Source: an uncultured Bacteroides sp. | GTDB lineage: Bacteria; Bacteroidota; Bacteroidia; Bacteroidales; Bacteroidaceae | Assembly (NCBI GenBank): GCA_900546355.1 | Contig: URCM01000012.1 | Coordinates: forward strand, 1-45,991 | DNA: 45,991 nt | Direction: 5' to 3' | In this document: positions 6,689-45,032 of the stretch, one piece after another | Layout: each line of letters opens with the position of its first letter | How positions within the stretch are numbered: position 1 is the stretch's first letter | Notes under the pieces: generated by a model | What the model was told of the DNA's origin: nothing | The model's database searches: none | Seen by the model: only the letters and a program-made list of their open reading frames with translations | Position numbers and translations under genes: made by a program

Positions 6689-6819
6689 AGAAAAAACTCT
6701 GATATAATTGCATCTTCTTTAAGAAAGATTAAACTATTAGTTTGTATTTCTATTCTTTTATTGCCGAAACTCGTTATGGCTTTGGCAAAGCAATGTAGTT
6801 TCACCTTAGTTTAGATATG

Positions 6820-6900
6820 TTGAAACTTTTGTTTCAGTGCATTGAAACTCTTGTTTCTACGCATTTGAACCGCAGTTTCAGTGTATTTGAACTCACCGGT
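6820..6900. repeat. tandem array of about 22-bp units carrying GAAAC-N4-GTTTC dyads
   Basis: Units begin with TTGAA at 6820, 6842, 6865 and 6887, so the period is 22, 23 and 22 bases. Unit 1 contains the perfect palindrome TGAAACTTTTGTTTCA, unit 2 contains GAAACTCTTGTTTC, and unit 3 a weaker TGAACCGCAGTTTCA. The fourth unit fades into the dinB stop codon. The array lies about 130-220 bases upstream of the rpoD box, at the 3' end of dinB. It looks like a set of helically phased operators but could also be a simple repeat. Confidence 0.55.
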
Positions 6901-8143: not shown

Positions 8144-8710
8144 ATGATGAAAGAAGAAATCAAGAAAGCGTGTGACGTAATGTATAAGGGAGGGGTAATT
8201 CTTTACCCTACCGATACCGTATGGGGCATCGGGTGTGACGCGACTAATGAAGAAGCTGTAAAGAGAGTGTACGAAATCAAACGGCGGGCAGACAGCAAGG
8301 CGATGTTGGTGCTGGTAGACAGTGCGGTGAAAGTAGACTTTTACGTCAAGGATGTCCCACCCGTGGCGTGGGATTTGATAGAAATGACCACGAAGCCGCT
8401 TACCATCATTTATGATGGGGCGCGCAATCTGGCTCCTAATTTGCTTGCCGAAGACGGGAGCGTAGGCATACGGGTCACTTCCGAAGCTTTCTCGAAAGAA
8501 CTCTGTTTTCGTTTCCGCAAGGCGATTGTCTCTACTTCGGCGAATATCAGCGGCCAGCCTTCGCCTGCGGTGTTCAGCGAAATAAGTGAGGAGATAAAGA
8601 ATGCCGTGGATTACGTAGTAGACTACCGGCGCGATGAGACAGGACACCCCAAGCCTTCCAGCATCATCAAGCTGGGCAAGGGAGGTGAAGTGAAGATTAT
8701 CCGTGAATAA
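8144..8710 (+). CDS. L-threonylcarbamoyladenylate synthase, Sua5/YciO/YrdC family
   Basis: The protein has 188 residues. It belongs to the family that makes threonylcarbamoyl-AMP from threonine, bicarbonate and ATP, the first step of t6A37 formation in ANN-decoding tRNAs. Family signatures are visible: GGVILYPTDTVWGIGCDA near residue 16, the basic IKRRADSKAMLVLV segment, GSVGIRVTS, and STSANISGQPSP near residue 126. The length fits the short TsaC-like form without the C-terminal Sua5 domain. Two adjacent ATGs (8144, 8147) are equally possible starts. The divergent dinB gene shares the upstream region. YciO-type paralogues look alike, so I leave the symbol blank. Confidence 0.88.
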   Translation: MMKEEIKKACDVMYKGGVILYPTDTVWGIGCDATNEEAVKRVYEIKRRADSKAMLVLVDSAVKVDFYVKDVPPVAWDLIEMTTKPLTIIYDGARNLAPNLLAEDGSVGIRVTSEAFSKELCFRFRKAIVSTSANISGQPSPAVFSEISEEIKNAVDYVVDYRRDETGHPKPSSIIKLGKGGEVKIIRE

Positions 8711-8725
8711 AGTAAACCGAACACA

Positions 8726-8796
8726 GGGCACAAAGGCACGGGGGTGAATTTGAGGATTGAAATGTGATTGTCCCCGTATCGGGTGGCTTTGTGCCC
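8726..8796. terminator. bulged hairpin between the Sua5/YrdC and ClC genes
   Basis: Outer arms GGGCACAAAGGC and GCTTTGTGCCC and inner arms CGGGG and CCCCG make a two-part stem. It begins 15 bases after the upstream stop codon. Without a clear T-run it may be a terminator or a dispersed palindromic repeat. Confidence 0.4.
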
Positions 8797-17274: not shown

Positions 17275-17433
17275 AATAAATGTCCGCATTCAGCCGATAC
17301 ATGCCCTTGAAAACGAAGATATATTTTACCGGCATTCCAGTTAACTGCTACAGCTCCCGGAGATAACTGAAACGGCAAGTAATATATATATTCATTTCGC
17401 GGGTCATTGTCGGGGCCGATTGCGGACATTTCT
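17275..17433. repeat. about 160-bp inverted-repeat element with a possible decayed short ORF
   Basis: The ends contain the perfect inverted pair AAATGTCCGCA (17278) and TGCGGACATTT (17421), extended by imperfect matches to about 20 bases. On the minus strand an ATG at 17429 opens a frame reading MSAIGPDNDPRNEYIYYLPF and on through VNWNAGKIYLRFQG. It then runs across the other end to a stop at 17226, overlapping comEC. A one-base shift near 17309 would instead give MYRLNADIYSER and a stop inside the element. It may be a mobile repeat or a degraded small gene. Confidence 0.4.
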
Positions 17434-25171: not shown

Positions 25172-25251
25172 TATGAATGTCCGCAATTAGCCAACGTAGG
25201 GGCGGGGGTAGCCCGGCCGTATGCGTCCAGGTGGATGTTTTCAGAAATGCG

Positions 25252-25405: not shown

Positions 25406-25810
25406 GTTAAGAGGCAAACGCTTTTGTCTCTTTCAGCTCAGACTTTCGCAAGCTTGAGCCGAACCAAAAACTATTACTATGAAAAACACTTAAAGTAACG
25501 CATATTTTTGTAATTAGGTTGCATAAAAGTGGAGTTTATTTTTGCTATTAAAATATTTTTAACACATAAAATTCAAGTTCTCGTGTTTGATAAACAAAAA
25601 TTCACACACCATGCTTAGAAGCTGTTTTGAATTTCTCCAAAAAGTTTTTCTTGGCTTGATGTATCCGTTTTCGTGTGTGCTTTGGGCGGTTTTTGGGTCC
25701 TTCCCGTTTCTGTCCTTCGTCAGATAGCCCGGCTATCTTCCTCATCACAGAAGCGGAAACGCCTCAAAAACTCATCCCAAAGCATCGCACGATAAATTCA
25801 AAACAGTTTC
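25406..25810. other. gene-free stretch before addB
   Basis: No coding frame is supported. The first 200 bases are AT-rich, with nothing I can name. The remainder is the palindromic repeat at 25615-25813. Confidence 0.5.
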
Positions 25811-28771: not shown

Positions 28772-31700
28772 TTATATTTTCTCCAATTCATTTTCAAACA
28801 CATACCACAGATATCCTTTTACATCGGCATATCCCATTTTATTGAGCAGTTCCATGTATTCTTTTACCTGCGCGCGGTAGATGCCTTTTTTCTTTCCGAA
28901 CTTAAAATCTACCACCGTTACTTGTCCGTCTTTCATCATTACACGGTCGGGACGCCGGGTTTGGAGATTGCCGGTTTCATCGGTATAGATAATGCTGCAT
29001 TCGCTATAAAGTGCTTGGGTTCCATTATACCAATCTTTTACTTGCGGATGGGCAAGCGCGCGGCGTGCCAATTGTTCGATACGGCAAGCTTGGGCATCCG
29101 ACTCTATTACGCCTTCGAATGTAAGATTAGCGATGGCTTCGGGCAAATCGGCTTCGGTCTTGATAGAAGCGAATACCTGATGCAAGAGCTGGCCTTGGCG
29201 GATGGAACGCATTTGCTCTTCCGTTTCATCGTCTTCTCCCTCGATAAAATCTGCCGAACGGTTCGATTGCTTGAACTCTATAGGAGTTTCTATCGATTCT
29301 ACATGTATGGAAAGTTTTTCGGGAGAAGCTCCTAATGGATTATCTGATTGCTGCGCTTTCACTTCTGCTGAAGGACAGAGTGTACCTAAGGTATAAACCG
29401 TGGGCGATGTTTCATCAAGAGCCTCATCTTTCGCATCCCATACCTTCAAATCAGGAACAGTCTGGGAAAGCAGTTCTGATACGGAACCTTTTTGCCCTGC
29501 CTTGCTCCAAATAATCAGATTCTTGCAGGCGCGGGTAAATGCCACGTAAAGCAAGTTCAGGTTGTCTACCCATAACTGAAGACGTTCATCGTGGTAGCTG
29601 TCCCGATAGACAGAATCTGCCATTGCCGACGAGTAATTTACGGGTACGATGTCCAGCTCGTTGAACGGAGCAATATCGGTTTCTTTTCCGGTTCCGGCCA
29701 CCGAACACCATATCAGGTGATTGTTCGTCTCGTTTTCCATCTTCCAGTCACAGAAAGGAAGGAGCACGGTATGAAATTCCAATCCTTTTGATTTATGGAT
29801 AGAGAGGATGCGGATACCGTCTATTTCACCCGAAGGAATGGTTTTTTCATGTAAGCGCTCGTCCCACCAAGCGATGAAAGCGGTCAGTTCCGACGAATGT
29901 TCTTCCACATATTCGGTTACAGCATCATAGAAAGCACATAAATAAGCATCTTGATGGTTTATCTTGTGCATATCGAAGAGGAGGAAGAGTTTCTCCAACA
30001 GCTCGTATAAGGGCATCAGACGTAATTCTTCTTGTTGCGCGATGAACGATTCGGGCAGGAATTTTCCAGTTTCATCTTGCAGGATATGGTTCAATCCGAT
30101 GTCGGTGTGGAGGATTTCATATTGGTAGGCTACGGCAAGGCGTGCTCCGGCAATACGGTCTTCAGGAACAGCGAGCAGACGTAATCCATCCATCATCATA
30201 CATACAGCCGTCGAAGCATCCAGACGAAAAGCCTCGTCCGACACGATACGGTAAGATGTATGTTTGTCAAAATAATCGGCTATGGCAGGGATAGACTTGT
30301 TTTTGCGCACCAAGATAGCAATGTCGGTGGTGTGTATGCCAGCTGCAACGAGCCGTTCCACCTCATTAGCCAGTTCTTCCAAAGTAGCTTCGGCATAAGG
30401 AAGCTCTTGAGAACCGGGCAGGAAAGTGAGGCGTACGTATCCTTGTTCGTCTTGCTTGGCGGTTTGTTGGCATACGTCGCTATAAGCATTTAACAATTGC
30501 AGGCAGGTTTGTCCCGTTTCGTCTTCATGACGGTGGTTCAAGATTTGTACGGCAGCGGTGAATATAGCATTGTTAAAAAGGACGATGCGTGCTTCACTTC
30601 GCCAATTGGTTTTCAGAGTCTGTTCGTGGATACGTAGGGTAGGGTCGTCACCCAGTCCTGCCAAAATCTTCCAGTCTCCATTGCGCCAACGGTAGATGCT
30701 CTGTTTGATATCACCTACAATCAGGCTGCCTTCCCGCTGAGAGAGACTTTCTTCTAAAAGCAGATGAAAGTTCTCCCATTGCATCCGTGAGGTATCTTGA
30801 AATTCGTCTATCATCACCGTATCAATAGCAGTACCTATTTTTTCGTAGATAAATGCTGCGTCGCCTTCGCGCATCAGACTATGTAGTAAAGCGTTGGTGT
30901 CAGCAAGCAAGAAGCGGTTATGTTGTTGGTTTTGAAGACGTAATTCCTCATCGATGTGTGCAAGAAGGCGTAAGTTGTTCAAGTGGCGCAGCGATAGGTT
31001 ACACGAGTTGACAATCAGGTTGTTTTTCGGGCGGAATGCTTCAGCAGTGGCGAGCAATGGCAGCAGTTCGGAAGAAGCAAGATCAAGAATATCAGCACGG
31101 CGTGGCGATGTCTTTGTAGCCCAGTTTTCTGCGCTTTCCAAGCATTTTTCTACGGTAGCGTTACGGATTTTTTCCGTCAAGTCGCCGTTTGCCAGTTTGG
31201 CGAAGTAACTGCCGATGCCTCGTTTGCCGTTCTTTAATTCTTCTGGAGCCAAGCCTTTCATTTCCAGCAAGCCTTCAAATTGCTCACTGAACCCTTTCAT
31301 TTCCTCTAATGCGTCTTGGCGGATGTTTTGCACCTGTTTGCGGTATGCCGGAATAAACGCCGGGTCTGCCAGCTTGCGTCGCAATCCTTCACCTCTTTCA
31401 ATGTAACTTTCATTTAAGATATTACGTCCGAAACTTTTTATTTCGCCCGATATGTCCCAACGTTTATCATCCGAAATACGTTCGTCGATATATTCCAACA
31501 ACCAATCCAATACAGGCGACAGGCGGTCCAGTTTTTCTATCATCGCATCTACAGCATCAGAGAGAGCATCGGTATCATTTAGTTCTATCGTCATGTTAGC
31601 CCCCAGTTCCAGTTCTCGTGCCAAGTTACGCAGCACGGCCTGAAAGAACGAATCAATCGTTTCGATACGGAACCGGTTGTAATCGTGTACGATATTTTCT

Positions 31701-31990
31701 AATGCTTTTTGTGCCGATTGCCGGATGATTTCTTCACTTTTAGAACATACTTTTTTCAGTTCGGCGAGGTATCCGTCTGATGTCTTCAGACCGTGAGCCA
31801 ATCCATAGAGTTGCTCCAAGATGCGGGTTTTCATTTCAGCGGTCGCCTTATTGGTAAAGGTTACGGCCAAGATGCGGCGATAGGCTGTAGGGTCTTCTAT
31901 CAGTTGCCGGATGTATTGTACGGCAAGTGTGAAGGTTTTTCCCGAACCTGCCGATGCTTTATAAACTAATAATTGCGGATAGTCTGTCAT
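28772..31990 (-). CDS. addA: AddA-like UvrD helicase/nuclease
   Basis: The protein has 1072 residues from the ATG at 31990; a longer frame would use a TTG four codons upstream. Walker A is ASAGSGKTFTLA near residue 12, followed by LAVTFTNKATAEMKTRI (motif Ia). Walker B/motif II is in VMIDEFQDTSRMQWENF. Later superfamily 1 motifs are LIVGDIKQSIYRWRNGD and IRILSIHKSKGLEFHTVLLP. The C-terminal nuclease includes RPDRVMMKDGQVTVVDFKFG, with the D-x-K signature. It translocates on DNA and cuts one strand as part of AddAB. Just upstream sit a TATCTTTG box and the 23-bp repeat array. Confidence 0.88.
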   Translation of the reverse strand: MTDYPQLLVYKASAGSGKTFTLAVQYIRQLIEDPTAYRRILAVTFTNKATAEMKTRILEQLYGLAHGLKTSDGYLAELKKVCSKSEEIIRQSAQKALENIVHDYNRFRIETIDSFFQAVLRNLARELELGANMTIELNDTDALSDAVDAMIEKLDRLSPVLDWLLEYIDERISDDKRWDISGEIKSFGRNILNESYIERGEGLRRKLADPAFIPAYRKQVQNIRQDALEEMKGFSEQFEGLLEMKGLAPEELKNGKRGIGSYFAKLANGDLTEKIRNATVEKCLESAENWATKTSPRRADILDLASSELLPLLATAEAFRPKNNLIVNSCNLSLRHLNNLRLLAHIDEELRLQNQQHNRFLLADTNALLHSLMREGDAAFIYEKIGTAIDTVMIDEFQDTSRMQWENFHLLLEESLSQREGSLIVGDIKQSIYRWRNGDWKILAGLGDDPTLRIHEQTLKTNWRSEARIVLFNNAIFTAAVQILNHRHEDETGQTCLQLLNAYSDVCQQTAKQDEQGYVRLTFLPGSQELPYAEATLEELANEVERLVAAGIHTTDIAILVRKNKSIPAIADYFDKHTSYRIVSDEAFRLDASTAVCMMMDGLRLLAVPEDRIAGARLAVAYQYEILHTDIGLNHILQDETGKFLPESFIAQQEELRLMPLYELLEKLFLLFDMHKINHQDAYLCAFYDAVTEYVEEHSSELTAFIAWWDERLHEKTIPSGEIDGIRILSIHKSKGLEFHTVLLPFCDWKMENETNNHLIWCSVAGTGKETDIAPFNELDIVPVNYSSAMADSVYRDSYHDERLQLWVDNLNLLYVAFTRACKNLIIWSKAGQKGSVSELLSQTVPDLKVWDAKDEALDETSPTVYTLGTLCPSAEVKAQQSDNPLGASPEKLSIHVESIETPIEFKQSNRSADFIEGEDDETEEQMRSIRQGQLLHQVFASIKTEADLPEAIANLTFEGVIESDAQACRIEQLARRALAHPQVKDWYNGTQALYSECSIIYTDETGNLQTRRPDRVMMKDGQVTVVDFKFGKKKGIYRAQVKEYMELLNKMGYADVKGYLWYVFENELEKI

Positions 31991-32014
31991 ATCTTGTCTC
32001 AAATTGTTTCTCTA

Positions 32015-32022: not shown

Positions 32023-32105
32023 ATGGTTGCGGATTGAATTATCCCTATTAACCGGAACAAAAAATCAATGAATTTCGCATTTGTCATTTGACTGGCTATA
32101 TAAAC

Positions 32106-32220
32106 GCAGTAGTACTTACTTTGCCTATGAAGTATATATCCGTGGACGGTTGCAGTATATATTAAACCGCCCATGCAGTATATATTCATTTTCTGTGGGT
32201 ATATATTGGCTGGGGACGGT
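32106..32220. repeat. array of 23-bp units with core GTATATAT, upstream of addA
   Basis: Units start at 32106 (degenerate, GCAGTAGTACT), 32129, 32152 and 32175, and a shorter one near 32198. The core reads GCAGTATATAT or a close variant; the remaining 12 bases differ between units. GGACGGTT at the end of one unit and AACCGCCC in the next can pair across a core. Its near edge lies 84 bases upstream of the addA -7 box. A second array occurs upstream of serB. The 12-base gaps are too short and variable for CRISPR spacers. Confidence 0.7.
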
Positions 32221-32288
32221 AAATTACCCGCGTAAAGTCGGGAGTGCACCGACAGAAAACATGAAATGGCTGTGTACGGTAAAAAATA

Positions 32289-43323: not shown

Positions 43324-44574
43324 TTAGCGGTTTGCTCGTTCGTCGAGGTACGAATCTTTGAATCCTAAGAAATACAGCACGCCGTCCAGTCCGATGGTAT
43401 TGATAGATTGGCGCGCATTGGCTTTCACCTTCGGCTTGGCGTGAAAAGCAATCCCCAGTCCGGCTACCGATAACATCGGCAGGTCGTTGGCTCCATCGCC
43501 CACCGCAATGGTTTGCGCAATGTCTACGTTCTCCACCTGAGCTATCAGTTGCAGCAATTCGGCCTTCCGCCTTCCGTCTACGATGTCGCCCAAATAACGT
43601 CCTGTCAGCTTGCCGTCCACGATTTCCAGGTTGTTGGCATACACATAATCGATGCCGAATTTCTCTTTCAGGTAATTACCGAAATAAGTGAATCCGCCCG
43701 AAAGAATGGCAATCTTGTAACCATACTTTTTCAACACATACATCATCCGTTCTACACCTTCGGTAATGGGCAAGTGTTCGGCAATGTCTTTCATTACGCT
43801 TTCATCCAGTCCCTTGAGCAATGCCACCCGCTCGGTAAAGCTCTCGCGGAAATCTATTTCGCCACGCATCGCCCGTTCGGTAATGGCCCGTACCTGTTCG
43901 CCTACACCTGCACGTTCCGCCAATTCGTCTATCACTTCGGTCTTGATCAGCGTAGAGTCCATATCGAAGCAAATCAAGCGGCGCATCCGTCGGTACATGG
44001 TATCTTTTTGGAACGAAAAATCCATTTCCAACCGATTGCTTAGCTTCATCAGGTCGCGTTGCAACTCTTCCGTATCGCGGGGAGTTCCTCTTACCGAAAA
44101 CTCAATGCAGGCACGCACCCTGGTCTTCCGCTCATCCAATGGGATACGTCCGGTCAGGCGCCGGATGGCATCGATGTTCAGTCCTTGGTCGGCAAGCAAC
44201 TGTGTAGCTCCCGCTATCTGCTGGGCGGTGAGTTTACGTCCTAACAAAGTCAGGATATAACGGTTCTTGCCTTGCATGTTTACCCATTCTTCGTATTCGT
44301 CTGCCGTGATGGGATAAAAACGGATGTTGATGCCCAGTTCCGAAGCCTTGAACAACAAGTCTTTCATTACATTGCCCGAGTCTTTCTCGTTGCATTTAAA
44401 AAGGATGCCCAATGAAAGCGTGCTGTGGATATCCGCCTGTCCGATGTCCATGATGTCAACCTCGTAGTGCGACAATATTTCGGTAATGGAAGCAGTCAGT
44501 CCCGGACGGTCCAGCCCACTGATGCGTATCAGGATAAGTTCGGTTTGTGTTATTTCCATGCTTTCTTCGTTCAT
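43324..44574 (-). CDS. serB: phosphoserine phosphatase with N-terminal ACT domains
   Basis: The protein has 416 residues and makes serine from phosphoserine. Two ACT-type domains come first (ILIRISGLDRPGLTASITEI, then YILTLLGRKLTAQQIAGATQ), which may sense amino acids. The HAD catalytic domain from about 205 has the nucleophile motif ICFDMDSTLIKTEVIDELA, the Ser motif ILSGGFTYFG, and VGDGANDLPMLSVAGLG. The start is the ATG at 44574; an in-frame ATG at 44559 is possible. Serine is also the substrate of Spt in this window, though the genes are not adjacent. The TATCTTTG box and the second 23-bp array lie upstream. Confidence 0.93.
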   Translation of the reverse strand: MNEESMEITQTELILIRISGLDRPGLTASITEILSHYEVDIMDIGQADIHSTLSLGILFKCNEKDSGNVMKDLLFKASELGINIRFYPITADEYEEWVNMQGKNRYILTLLGRKLTAQQIAGATQLLADQGLNIDAIRRLTGRIPLDERKTRVRACIEFSVRGTPRDTEELQRDLMKLSNRLEMDFSFQKDTMYRRMRRLICFDMDSTLIKTEVIDELAERAGVGEQVRAITERAMRGEIDFRESFTERVALLKGLDESVMKDIAEHLPITEGVERMMYVLKKYGYKIAILSGGFTYFGNYLKEKFGIDYVYANNLEIVDGKLTGRYLGDIVDGRRKAELLQLIAQVENVDIAQTIAVGDGANDLPMLSVAGLGIAFHAKPKVKANARQSINTIGLDGVLYFLGFKDSYLDERANR

Positions 44575-44591: not shown

Positions 44592-44599
44592 CAAAGATA
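44592..44599 (-). promoter_or_regulatory. -7 promoter box (TATCTTTG) for serB
   Basis: Exact TAnnTTTG match, 17 bases before the serB ATG. It gives a very short leader. Confidence 0.5.
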
Positions 44600-44689: not shown

Positions 44690-44804
44690 GCTACAGCACT
44701 TCATCGGACTATGCAGTATATATCCATTGGCAGTTGCAGTATATATCCATCGGCAGTTGCAGTATATATTCAACTGCCGATGCAGTATATATTACTTTTT
44801 GTTT
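44690..44804. repeat. array of 23-bp units with core GCAGTATATAT, upstream of serB
   Basis: Units start at 44690 (degenerate), 44713, 44736, 44759 and 44782, each exactly 23 bases. Four share GCAGTATATAT; the other 12 bases vary. ATCGGCAGTT at the end of one unit and AACTGCCGAT at the end of the next are perfect inverted repeats around a core. The near edge is 91 bases upstream of the serB -7 box, similar to the addA array. The sequence between array and promoter (ACCGGCAAGAAAATCCCTGA) resembles the corresponding addA stretch. Confidence 0.75.
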
Positions 44805-44897
44805 GTAATAATATTACCCTCCACGAGCAGGGAGATAATCAGCACCATTCCGATATGATTCTGTATCTGCAGACCACTTCCTTATCTCCCGTGCAGT

Positions 44898-45032
44898 TCA
44901 TTTGCGGACGGCTTTCCGGATAAGCCGTCCTATTCCTGTTCCTATCCAATAAAGAAAAGACAATGGAATCAGCAGAATAAAAATAAGGTATGGGATAACC
45001 TTCCCGATGTACTTGCTTAAACCTGTTCTCAT
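44898..45032 (-). CDS. 44-residue membrane peptide
   Basis: The frame reads MRTGLSKYIGKVIPYLIFIL, then LIPLSFLYWIGTGIG, and ends RLIRKAVRK. It is one hydrophobic helix flanked by positive charges, a typical small membrane protein. A TATCTTTG box at 45037-45044 ends only 4 bases before the ATG, so the mRNA would be nearly leaderless if that box is used. The 3' end contains a perfect 9-base hairpin (GGACGGCTT/AAGCCGTCC). A longer overlapping frame on the same strand (44839-45039) lacks this protein-like pattern. I know no family. Confidence 0.5.
   Translation of the reverse strand: MRTGLSKYIGKVIPYLIFILLIPLSFLYWIGTGIGRLIRKAVRK

Follow-up and report, generated by a model that had tools for sequence, protein, structure and literature searches.

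A 23-bp-Period Array Upstream of serB in an Uncultured Bacteroides sp. as a Probable Decayed Copy of a Dispersed MITE-like Element

Introduction

When a short sequence recurs at exact intervals upstream of a gene, the question arises of whether it is an operator of that gene or the trace of something that settled there for other reasons. Such a case is found upstream of a serB-type gene in the 45,991 nucleotides of contig URCM01000012.1 (uncultured Bacteroides sp., GenBank assembly GCA_900546355.1), a stretch referred to here, at its full length, as the window. An earlier note on this DNA had left two readings side by side, a regulatory operator array and a dispersed repeat.

Results

Array upstream of serB

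The features of this locus are as follows.

44713..44792, + strand: array 1, four exact GCAGTATATAT cores at 23-bp steps (motif count and TRF)
44690..44712, + strand: degenerate fifth 23-bp unit at the left edge of array 1 (weak, by eye)
44793..44815, + strand: right edge of array 1, TACTTTTTGTTTG (by eye)
44748..44782, no strand assigned: inverted repeat CATCGGCAGTTG / CAACTGCCGATG with a 12-bp stem and an 11-nt loop, able to form a hairpin on either strand
43324..44574, - strand: serB-type phosphatase with ACT and HAD domains

Exact copies of GCAGTATATAT start at 44713, 44736, 44759 and 44782 (step 23), are separated by the variable 12-mers CCATTGGCAGTT, CCATCGGCAGTT and TCAACTGCCGAT, and are reported by TRF as a period of 23 with 3.5 copies and a score of 120. 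With up to one mismatch the motif has 8 matches in the window, a number reached by none of 100 shuffles (mean 0.76), and the array is real. The earlier note had counted four to five units with a fixed 11-bp core; four are exact, while the claimed fifth is very degenerate, and the core, although identical in these four units, has the variants GAAGTATATAT and GAAGTATATCT in relatives. Its proposal that neighbouring variable parts can pair agrees with the stem-loop listed above and with the folding of positions 44690-44820, which gives z values of -3.3 and -3.0 on the two strands, none of 200 shuffles being as good on either. A search of Rfam for known RNA families returned no match at the gathering score.

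The right edge resembles, by eye, GCAGTATATATTACTTTC, the right edge of a palindromic subtype found in the two genomes described below as G001 and G301. Neither recognisable inverted ends nor a target duplication were seen at array 1, whose membership of the family rests on unit sequence and period; its units and right edge being those of the family, we take it for a copy that has decayed or lacks ends. The intergenic region that holds it is divergent, and the array sits ~115 bp upstream of a TAnnTTTG match (~44592-44599, between array and gene) that we take to be promoter-like for serB. Between array 1 and the gene for a thioredoxin-like protein there is also a 44-codon ORF, MRTGLSKYIGKVIPYLIFILLIPLSFLYWIGTGIGRLIRKAVRK (44898-45032, - strand), perhaps encoding a small membrane peptide, in a segment that has no counterpart in the related genome G148.

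serB in related genomes

The serB stretch matches 58 of the 61 genomes of the genus of Phocaeicola intestinalis, with the highest identity in G005 (91% over serB), followed by G148 (84%) and by P. intestinalis Sa1CVN1 (G001) and G301 (83% each). G301 is a close relative of G001, most of their long matches showing 95-98% identity and others 77-90%. Upstream of serB, array 1 was not found in G148, G001 or G301, nor in the 157 bp that precede the contig end in G005, and in G148 only 82 bp separate the alignable flanks versus 511 bp in the window. When array 1 was locally aligned to these four upstream stretches, its score on the forward strand was reached by 35, 19, 38 and 263 of 300 shuffles (G148, G001, G301 and G005, respectively), none of the stretches resembling it clearly beyond shuffles. 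Among 20 serB loci scanned at a loose cut-off, two of them with only about 157 bp upstream, five contained tandem matches; the one in G301 is clear and is a 22-bp array with a different sequence, and those in the other four are weak, with steps of 21, 27, 23 and 18. A conserved position upstream of the gene, as expected of an operator, is thus not seen in these relatives, G005 being read over its 157 bp.

An operator array, in which a protein would bind the 11-bp cores cooperatively at two-turn spacing to control serB and perhaps a UvrD-type gene, could draw on the exact core spacing and on the distance to the promoter-like match. Nonetheless, since the array was not found upstream of serB in the four relatives (over 157 bp in G005) and alignments there do not clearly beat shuffles, and since equally rigid steps are found at many unrelated sites, irrespective of gene starts (4 of the 31 placeable G001 clusters lie between divergent genes and 11 between convergent ones), we consider this function very improbable, and the operator array suggested in the earlier note is not supported.

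Spread of the GCAGTATATAT family

When the species-genome collection was searched for pairs of GCAGTATATAT cores separated by 0-30 bp, 43 stretches were retrieved, 31 of them with the 34-bp span that corresponds to a 23-bp step; these came from 24 P. intestinalis contigs, 6 other Bacteroides/Phocaeicola assemblies and 1 MAG labelled Clostridia, while the remaining 12 had other spacings and belonged to other groups. G001 contains 112 exact cores (1 for the reversed-motif control) and 62 exact 23-bp doublets (0 for the control), and among 399 genomes of the family Bacteroidaceae exact doublets occur only in G001 and in G301, which has 12. Where exact cores on one strand follow each other within less than 120 bp in the fetched G001 loci, the distance is 23 bp in 59 of 60 cases and 67 bp in the other. 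The search that the earlier note had proposed for Bacteroidaceae finds the 23-base spacing again, mainly in P. intestinalis. As to its proposed refutation, the motif is indeed scattered irrespective of gene starts, but the 23-base period is conserved nonetheless.

With up to 3 mismatches, matches appear in 8 of the 61 genomes of the genus: 98 in G001, 21 in G301, 2 each in G005 and G190, and single ones in G002, G148, G424 and G422, the last looking like chance; the reversed control gave one match each in three genomes of the genus. In each of the order and phylum samples, 2 of 40 genomes besides G001 gave one 3-mismatch match. Among viral relatives, six viral contigs had spans of 33 or 45 and none had the 34-bp span. 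Separately, Acinetobacter contigs of about 9 kb (L020, L033 and L034) carry GCAGTATATAT pairs at 22-bp steps, two pairs per place; they are possibly plasmid iterons and presumably unrelated to the P. intestinalis family.

Anatomy of the element in P. intestinalis

Aligned G001 copies begin with a left end, ATGAATGTCCGCAATTAGCCAAT, followed by a palindromic first unit, GCAGTAGTACTGC, and frequently by a unit starting GAAGTATATAT ahead of the GCAGTATATAT units, and they finish with a right end, ATTGGCTGTTTGCGGACATTCAT, that is roughly an inverted copy of the left one. The fetched G001 loci contain 107 exact cores in 42 clusters. With at most 9 mismatches out of 23 allowed per end, inverted ends enclose 60 of these cores (25 clusters), whereas 17 clusters are not bounded by ends even at this tolerance. 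Among the 20 better-ended elements, 12 fall on exact 23-bp length steps, at 139 (1), 162 (7), 185 (1), 208 (1) and 231 bp (2), and the other 8 deviate from a step by 1-3 bp, at 161 (4), 182 (1), 184 (2) and 252 bp (1). Arrays in G001 hold 2-6 units each (31 arrays).

The end motif is itself abundant, with 208 matches in G001 (28 for the control) and 166 in G301 (25 for the control), and shorter elements of different interior have similar ends too; by eye, a GTAGGGGCG-type palindrome lies within 10 of the 14 pairs of ends that span 90-140 bp. As to the traits of a MITE, multi-copy terminal inverted repeats are present in the family, roughly so in the two window elements at 32066 and 17276 described below, and not recognisable at array 1, and a short length free of any internal transposase gene is seen in the 20 array-bearing elements (139-252 bp).

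At five loci (L089, L094, L117 and L118 in G001, L194 in G301) the GCAGTATATAT array adjoins a repeated downstream sequence that by eye is the 3' end of a gene, and in some of them an inverted first unit precedes the array.

Evidence of mobility

Target duplications were sought in the 20 array-bearing elements that had both ends together with 14 bp of sequence flanking each of them. Exact direct duplications of 8-10 bp flank 6 of them (e.g., TTAATAATA and TAATTGTTTT), and a clear one is absent in the other 14; wrongly paired flanks attain such a score in 0.26% of cases, and the observed mean was matched by none of 2000 permutations. Among 14 shorter same-ended elements, four show, by eye, 9-bp duplications (ATTAGTTTT, TAAAGATAT, AATTAATAA and TTTCATTTA).

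Comparison of G001 with G301 reveals sites that differ and sites that are shared. For one G001 element the right flank can be aligned to G301, where another repeat, of high copy number, takes the element's place, and the left flank gives no simple alignment; a search for exact empty sites by joined flanks was swamped by a high-copy repeat in one flank, and no such site was obtained. A second G001 element is also intact in G301, with the same units, and at a third site, within a 3.8-kb stretch 97% identical in both genomes, four units are present in each. Unit numbers being equal between these close species (4 and 4, and identical elsewhere), no live expansion was caught. The G301 locus L307 (G301:C1, about 3442874-3443242), whose flanking genes are 70-78% identical, matches the site of a G001 array element and contains two other long inverted repeats, of the GGGCGTATCGCATACGCCC and GTAGAGACGTCACATTGTGGCGTCTC types.

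To look for an autonomous partner, 600,666 bp of G001 and G301 loci were screened for paired ends separated by no more than 3.5 kb. This yielded 60 end pairs, 14 of them longer than 260 bp, and no autonomous element or transposase with the same ends was recognised in these loci; the one long candidate interval that was closely inspected holds a glycosyl hydrolase family 30 gene. As no transposase with these ends was found, we infer that movement would take place in trans.

Other elements in the window

Further features of the window are listed below; array 2 and the third element do not figure in the earlier note.

32066..32236, + strand: array 2 (32129-32185, units at 32129, 32152 and 32175) within a full-length but worn element
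28772..32002, - strand: UvrD/Rep-type helicase gene, upstream of which array 2 lies
17276..17433, + strand: third element of the GCAGTATATAT family, with inverted ends ATAAATGTCCGCA...TGCGGACATTTCT and a diverged interior
25173..25250 (end approximate), + strand: left end of an element that shares the ends but has a different interior (GTAGGGGCGGG)
6803..6890, + strand: 22-bp palindromic array, TTGAAACTCTTGTTTC-like, belonging to the wider class described below and outside the GCAGTATATAT family

The array 2 element retains a left end, a first unit GCAGTAGTACTTAC, three units and a right end GGGTATATATTGGCTG, has up to 86% identity to G001 and G301 elements over about 110-118 bp and aligns over its length with G001 copies, L091 being by eye the closest; its outer ends are worn. 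At the corresponding site G005 carries a different 23-bp array, of the AAGATTATTAATCTT type, in which neighbouring units differ at 4, 3 and 8 positions and which is also present at three G001 sites. No right end was seen for the element starting at 25173. The region 6800-6895 folds with z values of -6.2 and -2.8, and the array within it resembles a G001 array at L156 (about 8703-8790). The window also contains a complete-looking copy of another MITE-like repeat at 25618-25810 (about 190 bp, ends AGAAGCTGTTTTGAATTT / AAATTCAAAACAGTTTCT), with at least about 40 full-length G301 matches at 95-98% identity among the matches listed, and with copies in G148 and G005.

Arrays of period 22-23 bp in intergenic DNA

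In noncoding DNA pooled from the window and ten other Phocaeicola genomes, with G001 left out and G301 represented by tiles picked around arrays, exact 8-mers recur most often at lags of 22 (27), 44 (17), 21 (16), 46 (14) and 23 (13), over a background of 2-10 at lags 8-20, 0-7 at lags 24-43 and 10 at lag 52; coding DNA mainly exhibits a three-base rhythm. An array detector covering periods 9-60 in noncoding DNA, applied to genome stretches some of which are very short (from 422 bases), found 9 of 11 arrays at period 22 (the others at 19 and 21) in nine Phocaeicola genomes whose tiles were not chosen for arrays. The corresponding figures were 4 of 9 in 20 Bacteroidaceae genomes (others at 11, 18, 33, 44 and 54), 1 of 7 in 20 Bacteroidales genomes, where two more are at 21, and 1 of 8 in 20 Bacteroidota genomes, with another at 21; 100 kb of E. 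coli K-12, only 10 kb of it noncoding, contained none. A replicate drew on another eight Phocaeicola genomes, with 8.4 kb of noncoding DNA in 80 kb; both arrays detected there were at 22, as were 4 of 5 at a looser cut-off.

When 37 arrays of period 22-23 were compared, 13 of 62 same-genome pairs were alike versus 18 of 604 between-genome pairs, and 13 of these 18 fall among the window, G001 and G301. Same-genome pairs being more often alike, unit sequences recur within lineages. Of 39 arrays of period 21-23, 19 have palindromic units, with their value reached by no more than 3 of 60 column shuffles.

Placement was evaluated with long ORFs, rather than curated annotation, taken as genes. Of the 33 arrays of period 21-23 that could be placed, 18 are flanked by convergent genes and 3 by divergent ones; among 370 intergenic regions the corresponding counts are 77 (Fisher p 7e-6) and 114 (p 0.005). 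When the G001 and G301 tiles, which had been selected for ends or arrays, are set aside, convergent placement accounts for 10 of 18 (binomial p 0.0013); L222 and L224, both in this count, may represent a single locus shared by two close species. Within the GCAGTATATAT family, 3 of the 41 G001 clusters are inside predicted ORFs and 7 at edges, the others being distributed as 11 convergent, 16 tandem and 4 divergent against a background of 17, 37 and 15; relative to tandem genes, the core is opposite in 10 cases and in the same orientation in 6.

Discussion

Considering that copies of the GCAGTATATAT family (i) lie in many cases between inverted ends, (ii) change in length mostly by 23-bp steps, unit by unit, and (iii) are in part flanked by target duplications, we regard them as MITE-like elements with a 23-bp minisatellite inside. 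They are, moreover, dispersed in many copies and differ in presence between relatives, so that the dispersed-repeat alternative of the earlier note gains the upper hand. Array 1 itself is in all likelihood (a probability of roughly 0.8) a decayed copy of this small non-autonomous element, its interior being the 23-bp-unit minisatellite. Intact copies, of the kind present in the relatives, have inverted ends starting ATGAATGTCCGCA and generate on insertion a target duplication of 8-10 bp, probably 9 bp; a transposase acting in trans and recognising these ends would move them, and their units may be gained or lost by slippage or unequal recombination. The copy upstream of serB would have lost its ends, and any effect on its neighbours would be a by-product of hairpins or AT-rich DNA.

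Porphyromonas gingivalis, a member of the same order, Bacteroidales, harbours the nearest described system. BrickBuilt, a MITE of that species, is intergenic and has 23-nt tandem units between a leader and a tail, the units being partly conserved and partly variable, with predicted stem-loops and a varying unit number, and its ends are nearly shared with PgRS, a MITE of different interior (Klein et al. 2015, PMC4596501). It resembles the P. intestinalis family in its dispersed intergenic 23-nt tandem units, in the inverted ends formed by leader and tail, in the varying unit number, and in that one end type bounds several interiors. It also differs from that family: its ends are GAGACCTTTGCA (IS5-like; PMC4596501, Table 2) rather than ATGAATGTCCGCA; the flanking duplications reported are CT, GAAA and an A-run rather than 8-10 bp; and its size spans 1 to 22.8 units and 84-991 nt versus 2-6 units and 139-252 bp here. 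Relatives are reported there only from P. gulae, plus weak BLASTx matches of the tail in two Prevotella, and the unit sequence appears there only as a logo figure (PMC4596501). Since ends and target duplications differ, BrickBuilt is a system of the same kind and not of the same family, while the 23-bp step that it shares, in another family of the order, fits a wider class.

Such a class, in which short and often palindromic Bacteroidaceae intergenic arrays with array 1 among them would conserve a 22/23-bp step set by a shared machine while their sequence is specific to the lineage, each lineage having dispersed families of its own, is put forward tentatively, the odds being somewhat against it. 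A transposase could play the part of the machine, as could an architectural protein or a copying step with a measure of about two helical turns. Titles and abstract openings of the papers searched mention no arrays of 22-23 bp in Bacteroides or Phocaeicola.

A structured RNA or 3'-end element, in which serial hairpins would terminate transcription or protect mRNA ends and be retained for that purpose, is the alternative that survives best, although we judge it unlikely. REP/BIME elements and REPINs are short palindromic intergenic repeats placed away from promoters, and the present arrays are like them in these respects; to our knowledge, REP/BIME elements and REPINs do not form arrays in which units of 22-23 bp differ in sequence from lineage to lineage. 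The enrichment of period 21-23 arrays between convergent genes, their depletion between divergent ones, the palindromic units of about half of them and the folding of array 1 on both strands would all suit this function, but the same placement is expected if insertions are tolerated only away from promoters, the placement of the GCAGTATATAT family is not clearly different from background, and array 1 sits in a divergent region. In addition, none of the GCAGTATATAT arrays tested passes the palindrome test (for array 1, 56 of 60 shuffles reach its value), variable parts pair no better than shuffled ones (6.19 vs 6.10 of 10) and do not covary across the core above shuffles, and the array 2 element has no folding advantage over shuffles, of which 12 and 43 of 200 do equally well.

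Plasmid iterons are direct repeats near 22 bp. A CRISPR-like or iteron array has a negligible probability, since the constant core with variable parts and a step of about 22 bp that resembles that of iterons are outweighed by 12-nt variable parts that are versions of one sequence and not unrelated spacers, by the many copies dispersed over the chromosome, by 72,556 plasmid records that contain no match to array 1 or to the one G001 element compared with them, and by the neighbours of array 1 that were checked (serB, a DEAD-box helicase, a HAD hydrolase and the thioredoxin-like protein), none of them a replication initiator, as the earlier note had pointed out for replication genes.

Reading array 1 as a decayed MITE-like copy puts a mobile repeat in the place of what looks like an operator of serB, and a wrong regulatory annotation is thereby avoided. 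If the period-locked class holds, an unrecognised common cause would be shaping intergenic DNA in abundant gut bacteria, and the arrays might serve as strain markers.
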